Of a stretch of DNA of 20,175 nucleotides, positions 2,664 through 18,248 are shown piece by piece (position 1 is the stretch's first letter; every line of letters starts with the position of its first letter). The position numbers and the translations under genes are program-made. Source of the stretch: Blastocladiella britannica (Eukaryota > Blastocladiomycota > Blastocladiomycetes > Blastocladiales > Blastocladiaceae). The DNA lies in NCBI GenBank assembly GCA_025349905.2, contig MU624858.1, positions 1 through 20,175 of the forward strand. The letters run 5' to 3'. The notes under the pieces were generated by a model. That model did not search any database and was not told the DNA's origin. It saw only the letters and a list, made by a program, of their open reading frames with translations.

Positions 2664-3893
2664 TCATTGCTTTTTCTTGCCCGCAGCCGCCGCAGCTACC
2701 TCCCGCGCCGCCGTCTCCTTGAGCTGGCGCTCGTTCTCCTCGCGACCGGCCTTGAACGCCGTCCGGAACCCCTCAATGAACCCCATTTCCTTGGGCACGC
2801 CTCCCGGCGGCGTCGGCGGCGGCGCGTGCTTGATGAGCGGCGGCACGTTAAAGTAGGCGCGAACCGACGCGTTCTTGAGCGCGAGGGCCTGGCCCAGCGT
2901 GTAGGCGGTGGAGGTGATCCAGTACACAAAGACACCCTACGCATCCACCACAAACAAATGTTAGTCTCAATTGCAAATCAACCAAAAAGAAAGTTAAGGC
3001 CAACATACCGCAGGCATGGCAGCCGTGATAGGAATCGCCGCAATCGTCACAATGCGGAAAATGGACAGGTACTTTTCAGTCTGCGGGTTCGACACGCCCG
3101 TCTCGGCGTTCATCTCGATGGTAGCCAGGAACCCCGCCGAGGCAATAATGGGCAGCGCGTAGGTCGGGTCGGCCAGCGTCAGGTCCGGGAACCACAGCAT
3201 TCCGCCGTCCTTGAGTCCGGGCACGCCCGCCTCGCCCATCTTGCGGATAGCCATGAAGAACGAGATCATGATGGGCGCCTGGATCATGGGCATGGCCACC
3301 AGCTTGAGCGGATTGATGTCGTGCTTGGCGTATAGCTGCTGCATCTGGCCCGTGGCCCGGTGCAGCGCGGCCGTGTCCTGGGTAGCCTTTGCCGCGTTCA
3401 TTTCGGCCATGATGCGCTCGGTCTCGGGCCGCAGGTTTGCCATCTTGGCCGAGTTCCGCTGAAGCTTGATGAACAGCGGCGTCAGGCCCGCGCGAAGCAC
3501 CAGCGTGCAGGCAATGATGGACGCCCACCACGGCAGCCCGCCGGCCACGTGCAGCGCCTCCAGGCCCTGTTGAATCCATCCGACGGGCGTCCACGACGAG
3601 GCCAGGCCCATGGCCTTGAGGTCGCCAATGGCGTGCGCCGACTGTGCAATGAACTCGGACACGCTCGAAACGTCCGGCATGGCCACATCTGTCGGGGTCG
3701 CGCCGCTAATCACGGTGTTGACGGCTTCTGTTGGTGTCGTGGTTGTCGAGAGGACCGGCGCGGCGGCCGCCACGGGGGCCGAGGAAGCCCAGCGAGGACG
3801 CGTCAATGTCAGTGCCGGACGCGATGCCAGCAGCACCTGGGTCGTGGTGGCCCGCAGCACCAAGGGTCGGGACAGCAAGGCAGCGCGCAGCAT
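2664..3893 (-). CDS. OXA1: Mitochondrial inner-membrane insertase Oxa1 (YidC/Oxa1/Alb3 family)
   Basis: Exons 3893-3009 and 2936-2664 (stop TGA 2664-2666) with a 72-nt intron (gtatgt...tag); 385 residues. Oxa1 inserts mitochondrially and nuclear-encoded proteins into the inner membrane from the matrix side. The N-terminus (MLRAALLSRPLVLRATT and about 20 more residues) is an Arg-rich, acid-free presequence. Family hallmarks follow: GGLPWWASIIACTLVLRAGLTPLFIKLQRNSAKM (split here by helix boundaries), a charged matrix loop with ERIMAEMNAAKATQD, then PMIQAPIMISFFMAIRKM and LPIIASAGFLATIEMNAE, and across the splice AMPAGVFVYWITSTAYTLGQ. The C-terminal matrix tail is short (KAGREENERQLKETA, ending AAGKKKQ), basic and helical, as expected for ribosome contact but shorter than in yeast Oxa1. 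The start was chosen as the ATG preceding the targeting peptide. It is 59 bp downstream of the eRF3 stop on the same strand. Confidence 0.92.
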
Positions 3894-3952
3894 GTTTATT
3901 ACAAAATTTCGATTTATAAAATCAACAACAAAAAAATCGCTAAAAAATAAAC

Positions 3953-5814
3953 TTACTCGGCCACAACGCTGCTCGCATCGGCATCGCACAGCTTGGTCAC
4001 CTTGCCCATAGCAATTGTGGTGCCCTCGCACCGGACCGTGAACCGGCCCAGCTGCGGGTTGTTCTTGAACGTGTCCAGCACCACCGGCTTGGCGCAGATA
4101 ATGCGGGCAATGCACATGGACCCCTTCTTGACAAACTGTGGCGGCTTCTTGGTGCGCTTGCCGGTCTTGCGGTCGACCGTGTGCAGCAGCGCGTCGAGCG
4201 TCATCTCCTCGGTGGCATTGTGCACGTGCAGCACCGCGTCGTAACCGGCCGCAATCAGGGTCTTGGTCTCGACAATGACCAGGTGCGCCTCAAATACGGT
4301 GGCCGCCCGCACCGGTTGAATGACGCTGCACAGCACCGCGCCATTGACCACATCCTCCTCCTCGATCCCGCGGACCTTGATGTCGACATTGTCACCCGCC
4401 TGCGCCGCAGTGACCTCCGTCTCTTCGACCGAGATCGAAATCACCTCGCCGCGGACATTGTTGGGCACCAGCAGCACCGACTGCCCACGGACCACGCGGC
4501 CGGCCTCGATCTTGCCCATGAGCATCGTGCCCATGTCCTTGTACTTTGCGGCAATTGGCATCAGCAGCGGCGCCATGGCCAGCTTGTGGTCAACGGGCAG
4601 CGCGTCCAGCAGCTCCAGGAGCGACGGGCCCGAGTAGTACGGGCACAGCTGCGGGTCGACGCGGTCCTTGAGGTTAGCGCCCGAGTAGCCCGAGACGGGC
4701 AGGAACTCGAGGTCGGTCTTGGGGTTGTATCCGCACTGCTTGAGGAACGGCAGCAGTTTGCCCTTGCACTCGTCGTACCGTTCCTGGGACCAGGCGACGG
4801 TCGGGTCGTCCATCTTGTTGATGACCACCACCAGCTTCTTGACCCCCGCGGTCTTGACCAGCATCGCGTGCTCGCGGGTCTGGCCTCCGCGCTCGAACCC
4901 CGTCTCGAACTCACCGCGGCGGGCCGAAATCACCAGCACGCCGACGTCGGCCTGGTTGGCGCCGCCAATCATGTTGGGCACGTACGACTTGTGTCCCGGC
5001 GCGTCCAGGATCGTGTACTTGCGGTGGTCGGTCTCAAAGTGCGCGCGGCCCACCTCGACCGTCTTGCCCTTGGCCCGCTCCTCCTTGTTGGTGTCGAGCG
5101 CCCACGACAGGTACCACGACTCGCGCCCCGCCTCCTTAGCCTCACGCTCGTACTTTTCCATGGTACGCTTGTCGACCTGTCCAGTGAGGAACAGCAGATG
5201 ACCGCCCATGGTGGACTTGCCGGCATCTAAATTTTTTTTTTTTCAAAGGTATTTGAGTCGATCCATCCCAGCTCTATTGCGTATATAAACAACATACCGA
5301 CGTGGCCAATAAAGACAATGTTGAGGTGCTCCTTCTGGGTGGCAAAGAACTCTTCTGCAAGCGCCTGGTCCTCGGCACTCAGCTCTGGTGCCGGGATCGG
5401 GGCGGCAGCAATGGGGGTGGGTTCGGATGCCTCTGTTACCATTCATTTTTACAGTGAGTTGGTTTGGTCTTGTCGCTTTCGAGTCAAACAGAGAGACATA
5501 CTCTTGGGTGTGCTCGTCGCCGACGCGGGCTTGGCAGTGGTAGCAGCAGCAGCCGGAGCAGCGGGGGTAGCGATGGGAGTCTCGGCGCGCTTGGGAGACG
5601 GTGCGCGCTTGGGCGACGGAGCACGGGCAGCAGCAGCGGATGCCGCAGGAGCCGGGGTCGGAAGCACTGCCACCACCGGAGCAGGTGCAGGGGCAGCAGG
5701 GGCCGGAGCTTTCATCCACGACGGCACAAAGGCCGGGGCGCCCATGTTGGGCTTGAAGGACGAGGCGCCAACGTTGAGCTTCTTCTTTTCGGGGGCGGGC
5801 GGTGGAGCGCTCAT
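3953..5814 (-). CDS. SUP35: Translation termination factor eRF3 (Sup35/GSPT) GTPase
   Basis: Exons 5814-5502, 5432-5298, 5226-3953 (stop TAA 3953-3955); introns 69 and 71 nt; 573 residues. eRF3 is the GTPase partner of eRF1 in stop-codon recognition and peptide release. Splicing rebuilds the P-loop GHVDAGKST (147-155), with intron 2 inside the Asp codon. Other G motifs: KGKTVEVGRAHFET (switch I), DAPGHKSYVPNMI (switch II; the KSYVPNMI form separates eRF3 from eEF1A) and NKMDD. The N-terminal domain (1-140) is Ala/Pro-rich rather than Gln/Asn-rich, so there is no yeast-type prion domain. It carries overlapping PAM2-like PABP-binding motifs LNVGASSFKP (13-22) and PNMGAPAFVP (22-31), plus a tandem RAPSPK repeat. 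The start MSAPPP was preferred over any upstream codon because upstream sequence is AT/poly-A rich. It diverges from the Mic12-like gene. Confidence 0.95.
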
Positions 5815-6327: not shown

Positions 6328-7443
6328 TTAGTCGTCCCCTTCGCTGTCACTGTCGCCGCGCCGCGTCGCTGCCCCTACTGCCTTGAACGCGTATCCGGAT
6401 CCTCCAGATCCTGCTGATGTTGCCGTCTTTCCCGGTGCCCGGTACTCGTCGGTCTTGAGGAGTGCGCCTTGACTGCAATGTATCCATAATCAGTAAGGCA
6501 ATCTCCAGTCAAAAAAAAAAAAACAAGGACGACATACCTCAACAACAAGTGCTCCAGATCCAGCGACGTAATGACCCGCGGCTTGCCCTCGGCCTCCACC
6601 TCCACTTCCAAGTCGTCAATGACCCGCACCATGTTGCTGACCAAGCTGCCGCCGCGGTACACTTGCAACACGGGCAGCGCCACCGGATCCATGTCCGGAT
6701 CAGCCGCCGCAGCACGGATCCGGACAAACTTGGCTCGCGCGTACCGAGAGCTCAGCGGGATCAGCAGGCCGTTGAGGGTGTTGCAGTCCGGGATGGACTT
6801 TATAACATACATAAGTCAGCTATGGCTGGCCATGAGGTATTAAAAACAAGCGTACCGGCTCGTAAATGTGCACAACGACCGCCGTACCCCGCGGCACCTG
6901 CTCAATCTCGCGCACAAATGCCGTGACCCCAATCTCGCGGAACGTGCCGTACACTGGCCTCGCATCGCGCTGCTCGCGCGACATTTGCGCCACTCGTGCC
7001 GTCCGGTACGCGCGCAACGCAGGGCTCTCATTGTCGTCGCCATTCATTTCGGCGTCGAGCTCGGCCAACAACGTGTCTTCGTCGTCTTCATCCTCATCTT
7101 CGTCGCTGTTCTGCCGACTATCCCGCGGCCCCTTATTGCTACGAAGCGCAGCCCGATCCAACGACGCAATGTACGCCGCGCGCTTATCGTCAGCCGCGCG
7201 TGCCGCCGACTGCTGCGTGTACCGGTAGTCGGCCAGAACACCTTTCGGGCCGGTTTGGGGTCCGCCGTGCGCTGCGAGCGGAGCACCGCCACCGCCAAAT
7301 GGTCCTTCGCCCATGACGGCGTCGGGATCGCGGTCGGACTTGTCGGGAGCTTCGCCCATGGCCCGCGGCTCGAGCCCGCCCGAAGTAGGGTCGAGAGACG
7401 CGCGCTGGATGGCCTTGATCAGTCGTTCGTCGAGGTCGGTCAT
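6328..7443 (-). CDS. Phosducin-like protein, PhLP1 type (thioredoxin-fold CCT co-chaperone)
   Basis: Exons 7443-6856, 6797-6538, 6472-6328 (stop TAA); introns 58 nt (gtacgc...aag) and 65 nt (gtatgt...cag); 330 residues. PhLP1 proteins help the CCT chaperonin fold G-protein beta subunits and assemble beta-gamma dimers. The N-terminal half is disordered and Gly/Asp-rich, with an acidic block DEDEDEDDEDTLLAELDAEM and the helix RAYRTARVAQMSREQRD. The thioredoxin-like domain follows: YGTFREIGVTAFVREIEQVP, then VVVHIYEPSIPDCNTLNG created by splicing. The I-P-x-x-x-x-L-N-G pattern, ALPVLQVYRGGSLVSNMVRV and DLEHLLL are typical of PhLP1/phosducin rather than PhLP2/3. The C-terminus ends in GDSDSEGDD, an acidic site of casein-kinase-2 type seen in the family. 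ATG 7443 is the first in-frame ATG; the frame upstream has only non-ATG codons. It starts 67 bp after the haem-fusion stop. Confidence 0.85.
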
Positions 7444-7510
7444 TTTTTGTTTTATAAAGCGATGGGAAGCGATGTGAAAAAAGCAATGGGAAATACGATT
7501 TTGAAAGAGA

Positions 7511-10423
7511 TTAAACGCGAATCTCGGCCAGGATCGCGTCCGCACCCAACGCCAGGAGCTTCTCCGCGGCCTCGACGCCCGACGTGGCCGACGCCGTCAG
7601 GTGGCGCTTGCCATCGACGCTCCAAATGTGCGCCACCACCTTCTCGATCGTGGTCCCACTGGCAATCAGCGACGTGGCCACCGCCACGGGCACCTGGCAC
7701 CCGCCCTGCACGGCGCGCAGGAAAGCGCGCTCGTGGTCGCAAGCCACGCGCGTCGGGCCGTGCTGGGCACCGCGCGCCAGCCGCACCAGGCCCAAGTCCA
7801 CCGCGCGGGTCTGCACGCCAACAGCGCCCTGCGAGACCGCGGGCACCAGCTGCGACTCGGCCACGGGCTCCACGTGCACGCGCGCCAGCAACGACTCGGC
7901 GCCAGGGAGTCGCTTGAGTCCCGCCACCGCCAGCACAATCGCGTCGTACGCCTGGGTTTTCGTGGCAGCGTGCTCGCCCAACAGCTTGGCCAAGCGCGTG
8001 TTGAGGTTACCGCGAATGTCCACAATGTGGATGTCGGGCCGCGCGGCCGCGATCTGAGCGCGGCGGCGGAGCGACGACGACCCAACGGTCGCGCCCTTGG
8101 GCAGCGTCGCCAGCGTGTACTTGTGCCCACTGCGTGACACGAGCGCGTCGCGGCGGTCCTCGCGCGGAAGCACGGACGCGAGCGTCAGGGCCGCGGGGAG
8201 CTCGGTCTCGAGGTCCTTGAGCGAGTGCTGCACGAACGCCACGTCCCCCGCCAGCAGCGACACCTCGAGCTCCTTGGTGAACAGGCCCTTGTCGCCGATC
8301 TTGGCCAGCGCCACGTCCAGGACCTTGTCTCCCTTGGTCGCCACCCCGTCAATGCGGAACCGGTGCGCGGACGACGGCGGTGCCCACCCAGACTGGGCAG
8401 TGGCCACGGCCCGCAGCTTCTCGGCGTGCGGCGCGGTCGCCAGCGCCTTTTCCACCAGCCGCGCCTGCGCCATCGCCAGCGGCGAGTTGCGCGACCCTTG
8501 CACGATGGTCTGCGCCTCCTCCACAAACGCGCCGACCGCGTCCACCGACATGTCGAGCTTGGTCCCGTGGCCCAGGTTGACAATGTACCGGTGCTTGCCG
8601 AACGCGTTGATCATGGCCCGCACTTTGCGCTTGATGTTGTCCACCGGCTCGTACATGACATCGGGCTCCAGGTTGCCCTGCAGCGTCACGTAAGGGCCCG
8701 CGGCCGCGCGTGCCTCGGAGGGAACGCCCGCCCAGTCAACCGAGATGGCGTCGTAGATGGTCTCGCGGGCGATGCGCGCCGTCGCGTAGTTGGCGCCGCG
8801 CGGGAACAGCGTCATGGGCACGTTCGGGTGGCGCAGTTTCACGCCAACGGCAATGTCCTTGAGGTACGGCAGCGCAAACTCGTAGAAATCGTCCGGTCCC
8901 AAGTCGGCCGCGTTCGACTCAAACACCTGCACCACGTCGGCGCCCGCGTCAATCTGCTTGGCCAGGTAGTCGATGGCCACGTCGGCGCATTTGCGCAGCA
9001 GCAAGTGCGCCCATTCCGGGTGCATGTGCAGCCACTTCTTGGCCAGGTCCTTGCCAATCATGTACGCCATGAGCGTCCACGGCCCACCGCAGAACCCGAC
9101 CAGGGCCTTATCACGAGCCAGCTGCGACCGCGTGAGCACCAGCGCGTCATACACGTGCTGCATGATTTCGGGCTGGTACGCCAGCCGCTCGATATCCTCC
9201 AAGGTGCGGATCGGGTGCGGGAAGAACGGGCCCGGCTGCATCTTGAGCTCCATCCCGAGCGCCTGCGGAATCGTCATGATATCCGAGAAGATGATGGCGC
9301 AGTCGACGCTGTACCGCCACACGGGCTGCATGGTGATTTCGGCCGCGATCTTGGGATCCGCGGTCATATCCAAGAAGTTCTTGTCGCCCTTGAGCTTCAG
9401 GTACTCGGGCAAGTACCGCCCGGCCTGCCGGTGCAGCCACACGGGCGCGCGCGGAACACTGCACCCGCGCAGCGCCTGCACAAACAGCGTTTCAATGTAC
9501 GACGGGCGCGGGGTGGCCATGGCCGCCGCCAACGTGCGGGCGCGGCGGGGCACTAGCGCCACGTCCAAGTGCGCGGCCGCAAACCCGGTGGTGCCGTGTG
9601 CTTGGGTTGCCCACGGGGTAGCGGTGGGGAAGCGCGCCGACGGCGGGAGGCACGCGTGCGGGATTCCGGCGCTAGCCAGCGCCAGGGTCGCCTGCGAGCG
9701 CGCCCAAGCCGCCCACTCGGCCTCGTCGGCCGTCAGAGCCACGGGCGCCGGCGCCACTTGGCGGCGCGCGGCGTCCGTGAGCCCCTCCAAGCTGTCGGCA
9801 ATCGAAGCGGCGCGGGTCACGGCCTCGAGCACCACGCGGACCGCCGGGACCACGAACGCGCGCACGACGTCCGCCGATGCCGCCGGCAGCGACTGCAGCA
9901 TAATACCACCAATGCCGCGGTACCGGTCGCCGGTCGCAGACCGGAACGCCTTATCGGCAGCAACCTTGGCGGCCGCGTAGTCGACGTCGGCGGCCAGGCA
10001 CGCGTCGCGCAGCGCCGCGTGCCAGTCGAGCGCGACGTCTTCGTCCAAGAAGCACGGCAGCAGCTCCGCCGCGACCTTGGTGGCCGAGAACGCGATCCGG
10101 GCCGCCGGAACGCGCACGTCCATGGGCCACAGCGCTAAGTGGTACGTGGCGTGGGCCGCGTCGTACGCCAGCACCGCGCGCTCCAGCAACGGACCGTTGG
10201 TACCGGCAGCCGCGACCGCCGTCAGATCAAACACCAGCGGCGCCGAGGACGACGACGCGGGTCCCGCCGCGGACGCCGACGCGACCAGCGCGGCAATGTG
10301 GGCGGCGGTGGATGCCGGCACGGCAGCAGCGGGACCGCCGTGCGTGGCCTCGACAATAGCAGAGGCGATGGTGCGAATGACGTGCATGGCGGTGGTGGCG
10401 GGGGAGGGAGGCGCCGGGGACAT
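7511..10423 (-). CDS. HEM12-HEM3: Haem-synthesis fusion: degenerate CPOX-like + uroporphyrinogen decarboxylase + porphobilinogen deaminase
   Basis: One intronless 970-codon frame, ATG 10423 to the stop at 7511-7513. Residues about 60-260 resemble coproporphyrinogen III oxidase: HATYHLALWPMDV (91-103), AELLPCFLDEDVALDWHAAL (119-138), RYRGIGGIM (167-175) and EAEWAAWARSQ (234-244), in family order. The GGG loop and the R-Y-x-E-F-N...D-R-G-T block are gone, so it is probably inactive. Residues about 303-640 are a complete eukaryotic-type uroporphyrinogen decarboxylase: HRQAGRYLPEY (Arg332, Arg336), FSDIMTIPQALGM (Asp381), Tyr454, FESNAADLGP (Ser503), NLGHG (His619). Residues 641-970 are porphobilinogen deaminase: GSRNSPLAMAQ, KIGDKGLFTKELE, HSLKDLE (catalytic Asp737), GSSSLRRRAQ, IRGNLNTRL, and ERAFLRAVQGGC with dipyrromethane-binding Cys909. 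The step-4 enzyme (uroporphyrinogen III synthase) is absent. The first 60 residues are low-complexity Ala/Ser/Pro. Neighbouring genes have introns; this one has none. Confidence 0.93.
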   Translation of the reverse strand: MSPAPPSPATTAMHVIRTIASAIVEATHGGPAAAVPASTAAHIAALVASASAAGPASSSSAPLVFDLTAVAAAGTNGPLLERAVLAYDAAHATYHLALWPMDVRVPAARIAFSATKVAAELLPCFLDEDVALDWHAALRDACLAADVDYAAAKVAADKAFRSATGDRYRGIGGIMLQSLPAASADVVRAFVVPAVRVVLEAVTRAASIADSLEGLTDAARRQVAPAPVALTADEAEWAAWARSQATLALASAGIPHACLPPSARFPTATPWATQAHGTTGFAAAHLDVALVPRRARTLAAAMATPRPSYIETLFVQALRGCSVPRAPVWLHRQAGRYLPEYLKLKGDKNFLDMTADPKIAAEITMQPVWRYSVDCAIIFSDIMTIPQALGMELKMQPGPFFPHPIRTLEDIERLAYQPEIMQHVYDALVLTRSQLARDKALVGFCGGPWTLMAYMIGKDLAKKWLHMHPEWAHLLLRKCADVAIDYLAKQIDAGADVVQVFESNAADLGPDDFYEFALPYLKDIAVGVKLRHPNVPMTLFPRGANYATARIARETIYDAISVDWAGVPSEARAAAGPYVTLQGNLEPDVMYEPVDNIKRKVRAMINAFGKHRYIVNLGHGTKLDMSVDAVGAFVEEAQTIVQGSRNSPLAMAQARLVEKALATAPHAEKLRAVATAQSGWAPPSSAHRFRIDGVATKGDKVLDVALAKIGDKGLFTKELEVSLLAGDVAFVQHSLKDLETELPAALTLASVLPREDRRDALVSRSGHKYTLATLPKGATVGSSSLRRRAQIAAARPDIHIVDIRGNLNTRLAKLLGEHAATKTQAYDAIVLAVAGLKRLPGAESLLARVHVEPVAESQLVPAVSQGAVGVQTRAVDLGLVRLARGAQHGPTRVACDHERAFLRAVQGGCQVPVAVATSLIASGTTIEKVVAHIWSVDGKRHLTASATSGVEAAEKLLALGADAILAEIRV

Positions 10424-14601: not shown

Positions 14602-17600
14602 ATGCGCTCAACCATCGCCCCGCAACCGGCGTCAACCAAGCGGTCAGGCCGACCGGCCGGACCACCGCTTGATATTGCCTCGGCCAGCCGCGATGGCATC
14701 AGCGCACGCCTACCCGATGGGGCCGCGCTCATGGACGGCATCATTCCGCACTGCCCCGTGTACCGCCCGACCGCTGACCAGTGGCGCGACCCGATCGCGT
14801 TTATTGCCACCATCCGCACCGATGCCGAGCGCGCCGGGATCTGCAAAATCATTCCCCCAAAGGACTGGGTGAAGCAGGTTGGCTTTGCGCTGGACACCAC
14901 TGTAAGTACTCTACCTGCAGTACATGGCGATATATGCTCATATATAAAGAATTAGACCTTCCGATTCCCCACCAGGAAACAGCCGCTGGCCGAAATGGAC
15001 GCTGGCGCGCGCGCGTCGCTCAATTTCGTCGAGACCTTGCAAAAGTTCCACGCACTGATGGGCCACCCGCTGACGCACATGCCGGTGCTCCAGCGCAAGC
15101 CGCTCGATCTGCTGGGCCTTCGCCGGGCCGTGCTGGCCCGCGGTGGGTTCGCGGCCGTCACCAATGGCAAGCGGTGGGCCGAAGTATCGCGGTCGCTCTT
15201 TTCCACGCCCTTCGGCCACAACATGCCCACGTACCTTCGCCAGGCGTACGCGCGGTACATTTTGCCGTTTGACGAGTACGTCAAGGGCGCCGAGGAGGGC
15301 GAGGCCGCCGACATTGCCGCCGCCAAGGAAGGGGACAGCGTGCGCCAGACGCGCGAGGCGGTGCGTGCTGCGCGCGAGCGGACCAGCAGCGTCGAGGAGC
15401 GTCTGCGCGATGTGGAGCGCGTGGTGCTGCTCACTGACACTAATGATAGCAGTGACGGTAACGGTGTCGTCAAGGCCCCGCCGTTGGTTGATAGCGGCAG
15501 CGAGTCTGCGACGGCAACAGCCGCATCTGCTCGCACTTCCGCCCGAATGCGAGCCCGTCCATCGAATCGAATCGGTGGTCCTGAGACTGGACTGGGATTG
15601 GTGGATTCAAAGCCATCGATAACGCCGCCACCCCTTTCGCTTCGCCGGTCTTGCCGAGGGTCCCTAGCGCTAACTCCGACGCTGCCGTGCGACTCGGGCC
15701 CGGACGATTCGGGATGTTGTGCCCCCCAGGCAAGGGGACTGCTGCCGTACCTGATCCCCGACATTGCTTTATCCACACCCAAAGCGCCCCTCCCCGCCGA
15801 CTACATTCCCGAACTTGGCGCCGAGCACTGCGACTACTGCGGGCACGGCTTTGCGCGCGACCTGCTGCTCATTTGCAACGATTGTGGACGGGCTGCGCAC
15901 GCCTACTGTCTCACCCCACCGCTTTCAGTGCACCCACGCGACCTGGAGGAATGGTATTGCGAGCAGTGCGTCCGCGATGTGGGCAAAGACTTTGGGTTTG
16001 AGGAAGGGGGCGAGTACGGTTTGGCCGAGTTTGTGCAGCATAGCCGCGCGTTCAAGCGCAGCTGGTTTGCCCGCCATGGTGGAGCCACGACCACCACGTC
16101 TTCCAAATCCGGACCCTCTGCAGCCACCGAAGCCGACGTGGAGCGCGAATTCTGGCGCATCGTCGAGGCACCCACCTATACCGTGGACCCAGTCGATGTC
16201 GAGTACGGCGCCGACCTCCACACCACGGTGCACGGGTCCGCGTTCCCGACCCCCGAGCGCGCGCCCACGCACCCACTGGCGCACCATCCGGCCAACCTCC
16301 ACAATCTCCCGCTCGCCGAGGGATCGCTTCTCCCACACGTTCGCCGCGATATTTCCGGCGTGGTGATTCCGTGGCTGTACATTGGCATGACGTTTAGCAC
16401 TTTTTGCTGGCACGCCGAGGACCACGCATTGTATTCGGTCAACTACCAGCATTTCGGCGACACCAAGACCTGGTACGGGGTACCGGGACACGCGGCGGCC
16501 GCATTCGAGCAAGTCATGCGCGAAACTGGGCCCGAGTTGTTTGAGCGCGATCCGGACCTGCTGTTCCACATCACCACGCTTCTGTCGCCCAAACGGCTGG
16601 TCGAAAACAATGTGCCCGTCACTGGATGCCACCAGCGCGCGGGCGAGCTCGTGGTCACGTTTCCGAACGCGTACCATGGTGGGTTTAATCAGGGAGCCAA
16701 TTGCAATGAGGTATGCACTTTCAAATGTTTTTTTACATTGTTTCTTATATCATTCAAATCTAGGCCGTCAACTTTGCTCCTCCCGACTGGGTACCCTGGG
16801 GCCGCCAGTGCGTCGAAAGGTACGCCGCATTTGGCAAATCGCCGTGCTTTTCGCACGACGAGCTCCTGGCGACCGTGGCGCTGGCGCCTGCCGACCCGCG
16901 GCCGGGACAATCGGACGAAGACGCACTGGCCGAGCGCGCGCAATGGCTGCACCCACACCTGGAGGAACTGCTGGACCGATGCAGCCGCGAGTGGGACGAG
17001 GTATGCATGCGGACCAATCCTGCGGCGCTGGGCCTGGAGGACGTTCTGGACCCGTGGGTGCTCGAGGTGGCCACCGACGCCACCGCCGTGTGCAGCGACC
17101 AGTGCACCGAGTGCGCGGCCTTTTGTTGGTACGTCGCCGTCGAGTGCAGTGCCCATGACGGTGGCGTCCGGTGCTTGAAGCATGCCGAGGTGTGCTGCAC
17201 ATCGGCACATCCCACTCCCACCACGGCAAATCTTGTGATGCCGGCGGAAGCGCCAGAGGCAGAGGATCGAATGGACGTGGATCCGCCGACGGTCGTCAAG
17301 TCCGAGAGTTCTTTTTCCAATGGTGGTAGCACTTTTGCACCGTCCGCCACGAACCACACCAAGCACGCCATTGTGCGTTACAAGCTGCCCGACCTGGCCG
17401 AAATTGTCCGCAACGTTGGTCAACGCGCCAACCAGTGGCAAGTATGGACCGCCCGCGTGCAGGGGTTCTCAGCGACCCATGCCGCGTGCCAGACGCGCCC
17501 GTCCTTGCGCGACTTGAGCGACCTGCTGGTGTACGCAGCGCGCATTCCTCGAGCCCTGGACCCAGCACCGGCCATGTACCACGAGCTGCTGGACCATGTG

Positions 17601-18248
17601 GCGCGCGTGGTCGCGTGGACGGAAGCGGCGGCCAAGTGGCTCAAGGCCCTTGGGCCCGTGCGGAACACCGGGGGCACTGGTAAGCGGCCTCCAACTTCAG
17701 CAGCACCCAATACAATGACAACAGCTGCCGCCACCCCTGCCGCAGTCCGCGTGACGGCCGCCGAAGTACTAGCCATGCGCGACGCCGCTGACGCGCTGTA
17801 TGTGGAAACCACCGAGACCAAGGCCGTGCTCGCGCTCGCCGACACCATCGACGCCCTTGGTGAAACCGGCCGCCAGCTGGTGGCGCGGATCGAGGACCTC
17901 GAAATTGGGATTTCGGTACATTCGGGACCGCCCGCTACCAAAGCCGAGTGCCTGGCGTACCTGGCCGATGCTGCCGCCAAAACCGGGACCAATGGGACGG
18001 GCGTCGCCACGATCCTTGTTCCAGAAGTCGAGCACGTGGAGTCGTTGGTGCCGCTGGTGGACTGGCGCGAGCGCGCACAGCAGCTGCTGGCGGTGAAACA
18101 GGGTGCTCACCAGCAACAGCAGCTGCAGGAGCTGGAGACGTTGATTGCGGAAGCGGACGGCTTGGATTTGCAGACGTTGCTGGATACCGCGCTGGATGGC
18201 GAGTTGAGGGATCGGTTGGAGGAGATCAAGTTGGGTGGGTGTAATTGA
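14602..18248 (+). CDS. KDM5: KDM5/JARID1-type histone H3K4 demethylase (JmjN-ARID-PHD-JmjC-C5HC2-PLU1)
   Basis: Exons 14602-14901, 14956-16710, 16764-18248; introns 54 nt (gtaagt...tag) and 53 nt (gtatgc...tag), both phase 0; 1179 residues. It should remove methyl groups from H3 Lys4 using Fe(II) and 2-oxoglutarate in the nucleus. Order: JmjN (CPVYRPTADQWRDPIAFI, about 51-90) continuing across the splice into TFRFPTRKQPL; ARID (about 120-210); a long Ser/Ala-rich linker; PHD1 with Cys4-His-Cys3 spacing (HCDYCGHGF to WYCEQC, about 392-438); JmjC with iron ligands His586 and Glu588 (CWHAEDH) and His674 (AYHGGFNQG), and 2-oxoglutarate Lys604 (KTWYGVP); a C5HC2 zinc finger (about 795-830); and PLU-1 helices ending in LDTALDGELRDRLEEIK. 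The C-terminal PHD fingers of animal KDM5 are missing and the protein stops soon after PLU-1. All catalytic residues are present. Confidence 0.95.

Follow-up and report, generated by a model that had tools for sequence, protein, structure and literature searches.

The window analysed here, a stretch of 20,175 nucleotides covering positions 1 to 20,175 of contig MU624858.1 of Blastocladiella britannica (assembly GCA_025349905.2), carries a gene whose single reading frame joins uroporphyrinogen decarboxylase (UROD, step 5 of haem synthesis) directly to porphobilinogen deaminase (PBGD, step 3), behind a domain predicted to have the fold of coproporphyrinogen oxidase (CPOX, step 6) and devoid of the CPOX motifs tested. 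These are the only copies of UROD and PBGD detected in the genome. The reading favoured here, with a probability of roughly 0.57, is that the chain would be a bifunctional cytosolic enzyme whose front domain acts as a dead scaffold.

The frame of 970 codons, as first predicted, is uninterrupted: it runs on the minus strand from an ATG at position 10423 to a TAA ending at 7511, with zero internal stops in its 970 amino acids, and frame 1 of the plus strand is interrupted by stops over the same interval. An in-frame TAA 12 bases upstream of the ATG closes the frame, and the second in-frame ATG corresponds to residue 13. By comparison, 300 single-base shuffles of this interval gave no open run above 364 codons, with a median of 218. 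The G+C content at third codon positions varies little from the first of the three domains to the last (0.87, 0.89 and 0.90; 0.92 across the UROD-PBGD join), so that the coding signal is uniform along the gene.

Both enzymes are recognised by Pfam (URO-D, E 9.3e-105; Porphobil_deam, E 1.4e-62, followed by Porphobil_deamC; Table 1) and pass the NCBIfam equivalog cut-offs of hemE (336.9 bits against 302.95) and hemC (236.5 against 164), which bears out the direct fusion that had been proposed, and solved structures of UROD and PBGD are matched both by sequence and by predicted fold. The active sites, claimed to be intact, are indeed complete in the alignments: UROD keeps R332, Q333, R336, D381, Y454, S503 and H619, at the positions of human R37, Q38, R41, D86, Y164, S219 and H339, and PBGD keeps the cofactor cysteine C909, K736, the catalytic aspartate D737 and the substrate arginines R786, R787, R804, R810 and R838, at the positions of human C261, K98, D99, R149, R150, R167, R173 and R195. 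The choice of these residues is assumed from general knowledge and their human numbers were counted on the alignment, as was the equivalence of residue 783 of the chain with human PBGD S146; for human PBGD R26, S28 and Q34, found beyond the stretch used for counting, the numbers are likewise assumed. All 12 eukaryotic sequences aligned share the 7 UROD positions, and all 11 of those with PBGD share 12 PBGD positions. The protein would probably be made as one piece, and both enzyme parts would probably be active.

The nearly linker-free join of the original prediction is also found in the full-chain model (mean predicted local distance difference test, pLDDT, 79.9; predicted template modelling score, pTM, 0.78), where the last helix of UROD (627-638) is followed at once by the first strand of PBGD (639-645). 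The NL[GS]HG motif of UROD and the G[ST]R motif of PBGD lie 27 residues apart in every one of the 11 eukaryotic sequences (33 in the proteins P0049 and P0050, discussed below), and a join of constant spacing without a linker suggests that the relative placement of the two enzymes matters. A chain cut after translation, or a gene giving separate products, would leave UROD and PBGD as ordinary separate enzymes. This is improbable, although the Allomyces javanicus protein P0009 (601 amino acids, front domain plus UROD) ends exactly at the join, so that the parts may exist apart, and an internal start is conceivable at a methionine found 18 residues before the first strand motif of PBGD in 11 of 11 sequences (M625 in the window; the last methionine before the PBGD motif in 10 of the 11, P0048 having a later one too). 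However, M625 lies within UROD, among its own conserved positions, and a cleaved protein would need neither the linker-free join nor its fixed spacing. P0009 itself may be a paralogue that has diverged, the product of a fission or an incomplete gene model.

PBGD contains an insertion of about 27 residues, which B. emersonii and Allomyces arbusculus share. The GT..AG stretch around it, some 63 bases long, was considered as an intron and rejected, as its excision would delete a helix present in the relatives, and the insertion is taken as coding for this reason. Reading of the sequence by eye also led to rejection of an in-frame intron at the join or within the insertion.

Six-frame searches over the 15.26 Mb, 624-contig assembly containing the window detected no match to UROD or PBGD outside this locus; separate HEM3 and HEM12 genes, whose presence the original prediction had named as speaking against it, were thus not found. 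In the case of CPOX, a strong match lies at C5 (383.2 bits) and a weak one at the fusion locus (30.6 bits). The former is an intact separate CPOX; used as a query, its 369 residues are 100% identical throughout to a protein of Blastocladiella britannica, and B. emersonii, Catenaria, Allomyces macrogynus and Paraphysoderma also have separate CPOX proteins among the matches. UROS (step 4) is a separate gene at C562, ferrochelatase lies in two pieces at C455, and a protoporphyrinogen-oxidase-like gene at C127 is also in two pieces, each under the family cut-off.

A domain of predicted CPOX fold lacking the CPOX motifs tested

The N-terminal domain had been described as CPOX-like and assigned to step 6. 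The first part of this description stands by prediction, whereas the second does not, since the CPOX motifs tested are lost and a CPOX is encoded elsewhere in the genome. In sequence, the Pfam Coprogen_oxidas match is short and sub-threshold (residues 119-201; 29.1 bits, where the cut-off is 31.8), and the window protein fails the NCBIfam cut-off of oxygen-dependent CPOX (22.4 bits against 297). Among four relatives with a Coprogen_oxidas match, that of Paraphysoderma alone passes the Pfam cut-off (91.2 bits; the others, 31.3, 26.6 and 21.8). A complete CPOX fold is predicted by a model of the domain alone followed by a fold search, and hhalign shows a remote similarity to CPOX over most of it; the domain was modelled separately as the fold search with the full chain gave only UROD and PBGD among the matches listed.

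The exact motifs HxNxR, GGGxDLTP, RRGRY, DRGTxFG and RxES, tested against a canonical CPOX set composed of the best 120 of 7996 matches to the CPOX of this genome and picked to look canonical, are each present in 0 of 12 fusion proteins. In four of these 12 (P0008, P0010, P0011 and P0048) a CPOX domain cannot be detected, and the absence of motifs from them therefore adds nothing: in hhalign, the front parts of P0010, P0011 and P0048 show no detected homology to the CPOX or pseudo-CPOX profiles (probability 0.1), and that of P0008 none to CPOX and a weak one to pseudo-CPOX profiles (19 and 46%). A search of the open-licence literature for CPOX catalytic residues found nothing.

A trifunctional chain, in which the front domain keeps a CPOX-related activity through altered residues, is very hard to credit. 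The aspartate of GGGxDLTP is aligned with a glutamate (AELLP and similar) in 8 of 8 sequences with a detectable CPOX domain, RxGG is retained in 7 of the 8, and the fold group takes in other tetrapyrrole-binding enzymes, namely bilin reductases and red chlorophyll catabolite reductase, all of which would fit such an activity. On the other hand, the remaining exact motifs are missing throughout, though near forms of RRGRY persist (e.g. RRGRV in Paraphysoderma), and this genome encodes an intact CPOX apart from the fusion, with separate CPOX proteins also listed for the four other species. CPOX activity of the front domain is judged unlikely.

Distribution and relationships of the fusion

A first protein search gave 47 matches, 10 of them (that of the window included) with the Pfam families of both UROD and PBGD. 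Seven of the 10 also carry the CPOX family: the window protein, B. emersonii P0002, Allomyces arbusculus P0003, P0004 (a JGI protein), Sorochytrium milnesiophthora P0005, Paraphysoderma sedebokerense P0006 and Coelomomyces lativittatus P0007. A profile search (25 matches) added P0048 and the distinct pair P0049/P0050, giving 13 proteins with both enzymes. At least five named Blastocladiomycota genera have this architecture, as do four more divergent proteins; the search among related zoosporic fungi proposed with the prediction thus places the arrangement beyond this genome.

In the UROD tree (27 sequences), the 12 eukaryotic ones, with P0009 among them, are united with 100/100 support, and in the PBGD tree (40 sequences) the 11 eukaryotic fusions form one group, with P0049/P0050 elsewhere in both. 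As both trees are midpoint-rooted and contain few stand-alone eukaryotic UROD and no recognised stand-alone eukaryotic PBGD, scarce because the searches were restricted to lengths of 0.55-1.75 times that of the query, they indicate one group among the sequences examined and not its sister. P0016 and P0060 were left out of the UROD tree, and P0015 out of the PBGD tree, for lack of the cutting motif, and several fusions in the PBGD tree have an unusual composition. Gene-annotation fusion artefacts are common in some groups, according to PMC12964723. An assembly or annotation artefact was nonetheless rejected here and has a negligible probability, as the DNA sequence itself contains the uninterrupted frame and independently sequenced genomes share the architecture, in one group for both enzymes.

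In the UROD tree, P0011 and P0048 have long branches and cluster with P0010, P0008 and Paraphysoderma. These two proteins would come from sanchytrids, the sister group of Blastocladiomycota according to PMC8371127, judging from EukProt contig naming alone, which fits the SPAdes/TransDecoder route of that work. In the case of P0049/P0050, the same two enzymes appear in the same order, whereas the join is six residues longer, the CPOX-fold domain is lacking and the proteins, of bacterial look, take a separate place in both trees; no relative of theirs was found in scans of genome contigs. The pair is likely an independent, convergent fusion of the same two non-consecutive steps.

Fusions of haem enzymes as such are already known, and those of consecutive steps, including PBGD-UROS, are tabulated in Table 3 of PMC4921024. 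PBGD-UROS (HemC-HemD), with many examples in the first protein search, also joins PBGD to an enzyme of the same pathway; however, it unites the consecutive steps 3-4 around an unstable intermediate, whereas the present chain combines steps 3 and 5, with UROS encoded by another gene. The UROS-UROD chains P0021, P0058 and P0060 likewise give UROD a pathway partner, but of consecutive steps (4-5) and without PBGD or a CPOX-fold domain. Oxygen-dependent CPOX (Hem13, HemF) shares its predicted fold and a remote sequence similarity with most of the front domain, which differs in its lack of CPOX motifs and its fusion to UROD. According to PMC7242693, the siroheme enzymes CysG and Met8p also carry several tetrapyrrole steps per chain, though they are other enzymes and their steps are consecutive. 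The present tetrapyrrole fusion stands out by its unusual partners and its predicted pseudoenzyme domain. No description of UROD-PBGD, with or without the dead CPOX domain, was found among the papers listed by searches of an open-licence library, which leaves subscription papers and most preprints outside, nor in the available portions of PMC4870792, PMC4921024, PMC4501334, PMC3004389, PMC8219788, PMC8233740, PMC7242693 and PMC8371127. Within that literature, the earlier statement that the arrangement was undescribed holds.

Proposed function and its difficulties

UROD forms homodimers, whereas PBGD is monomeric. The chain would dimerise through UROD, so that each half of the UROD dimer would bear one PBGD and one dead CPOX domain. 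The separate UROS would take hydroxymethylbilane from PBGD and give uroporphyrinogen III back to the nearby UROD, with a possible gain from the proximity of the two enzymes. The pseudo-CPOX domain would stabilise or orient the assembly, or hold coproporphyrinogen III ahead of the separate CPOX; it is most simply regarded as a scaffold. A bolder and doubtful extension is that the reverse-ordered chain (dead step 6, step 5, step 3) goes back to the ancestor of Blastocladiomycota, which the sanchytrids may share, and has since formed a haem metabolon for the cytosolic middle part of the pathway. In it the pseudo-CPOX domain, retained as a scaffold that binds tetrapyrroles, would accept coproporphyrinogen III from UROD and be its exit port to the mitochondrial CPOX, and UROS would dock between PBGD and UROD.

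Several points weigh against a bifunctional cytosolic enzyme with a dead scaffold. The catalytic status of the active-site residues is assumed, their human and yeast numbers agreeing with counts on the alignments apart from the three PBGD residues named above. The fused steps 3 and 5 are not consecutive, so that hydroxymethylbilane must pass through a separate UROS before reaching UROD. In the assembly, two models of ALAD gave no match, and the best match to ALAS scored 197 bits against a cut-off of 338.55 and, read by eye, is taken to be LCB2, a subunit of serine palmitoyltransferase, ALAS itself not being found; this non-detection of steps 1-2 may be an assembly gap or a truly incomplete front of the pathway. 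A cytosolic location, in a compartment distinct from that of CPOX, is only weakly suggested by the N-terminal residues: the first 40 residues of the separate CPOX proteins P0061, P0062, P0064 and P0067 contain 6-7 basic and 0 acidic residues, like mitochondrial presequences, but Catenaria CPOX (P0063) differs from these four in its 4 basic and 6 acidic residues and begins at the core. The fusions are mixed in this respect (1 and 1 in the window, 9 and 3 in P0010), and a measure of hydrophobicity failed to separate them from the separate CPOX proteins.

The last difficulty is the front domain, the fastest-changing part of the chain, with 46% identity to the closest relative, B. emersonii, against 86% in UROD and 66% in PBGD; in P0010, P0011 and P0048 it is much shorter, at 142-174 residues without detectable similarity to CPOX. 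These data would equally fit a functionless remnant of an earlier CPOX-UROD fusion, in a protein that is simply a PBGD/UROD bifunctional enzyme, and this remains a serious, though less probable, rival to a scaffold. Against it, a full-length CPOX-like profile is preserved in 8 sequences, and E128, D129, H135, D157, G172, G173 and W237 are invariant over 9 aligned ones, positions that free decay would hardly retain.

Haem synthesis is essential, and each of its enzymes usually has a gene to itself. An early-diverging fungal phylum with two fused non-consecutive steps, no separate copy in the genome searched and the erased domain of a third enzyme would offer a natural test for the channelling of unstable, phototoxic haem intermediates. 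The fusion is also a candidate derived character of Blastocladiomycota and, if confirmed, of the sister-group sanchytrids. The fused protein is on record in B. emersonii and Allomyces, both long-standing laboratory organisms.

Coordinates and neighbouring genes

Table 1. Features of the fusion gene, in positions of the window
Feature	Positions	Strand	Basis
Whole fusion gene, 970 codons	7511..10423	-	Open reading frame, third-position G+C, shuffles
CPOX-fold domain without tested CPOX motifs (predicted pseudoenzyme), residues 1-308	9500..10423	-	Pfam, hhalign, model, fold search, motif count
UROD (step 5), residues 312-638, active-site positions intact	8510..9490	-	Pfam, NCBIfam, structures, motifs
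UROD-PBGD join, residues 637-645	8489..8515	-	Model, alignment, spacing
PBGD insertion, residues about 660-686 (~27 residues), low model confidence, coding	8366..8446	-	Alignment, model
PBGD (step 3) cofactor-binding domain match, residues 643-876, active-site positions intact	7796..8497	-	Pfam, NCBIfam, alignment
PBGD C-terminal domain, residues 894-956, cofactor cysteine C909	7556..7744	-	Pfam, alignment

Downstream of the fusion gene, a Phosducin-like gene of at least two exons occupies positions 6375-7545 of the minus strand, with the Pfam family Phosducin in both pieces. Further along the same strand lie a gene of the 60Kd inner membrane protein family (2994-4115), presumably Oxa1-like, and a translational GTPase (3953-5209), presumably eRF3/Hbs1-like. 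On the plus strand, a gene at 14995-18248, split over at least two frames, has matches to ARID, PHD and JmjC and weaker ones to PLU-1 and C5HC2, and is taken to be KDM5-like.
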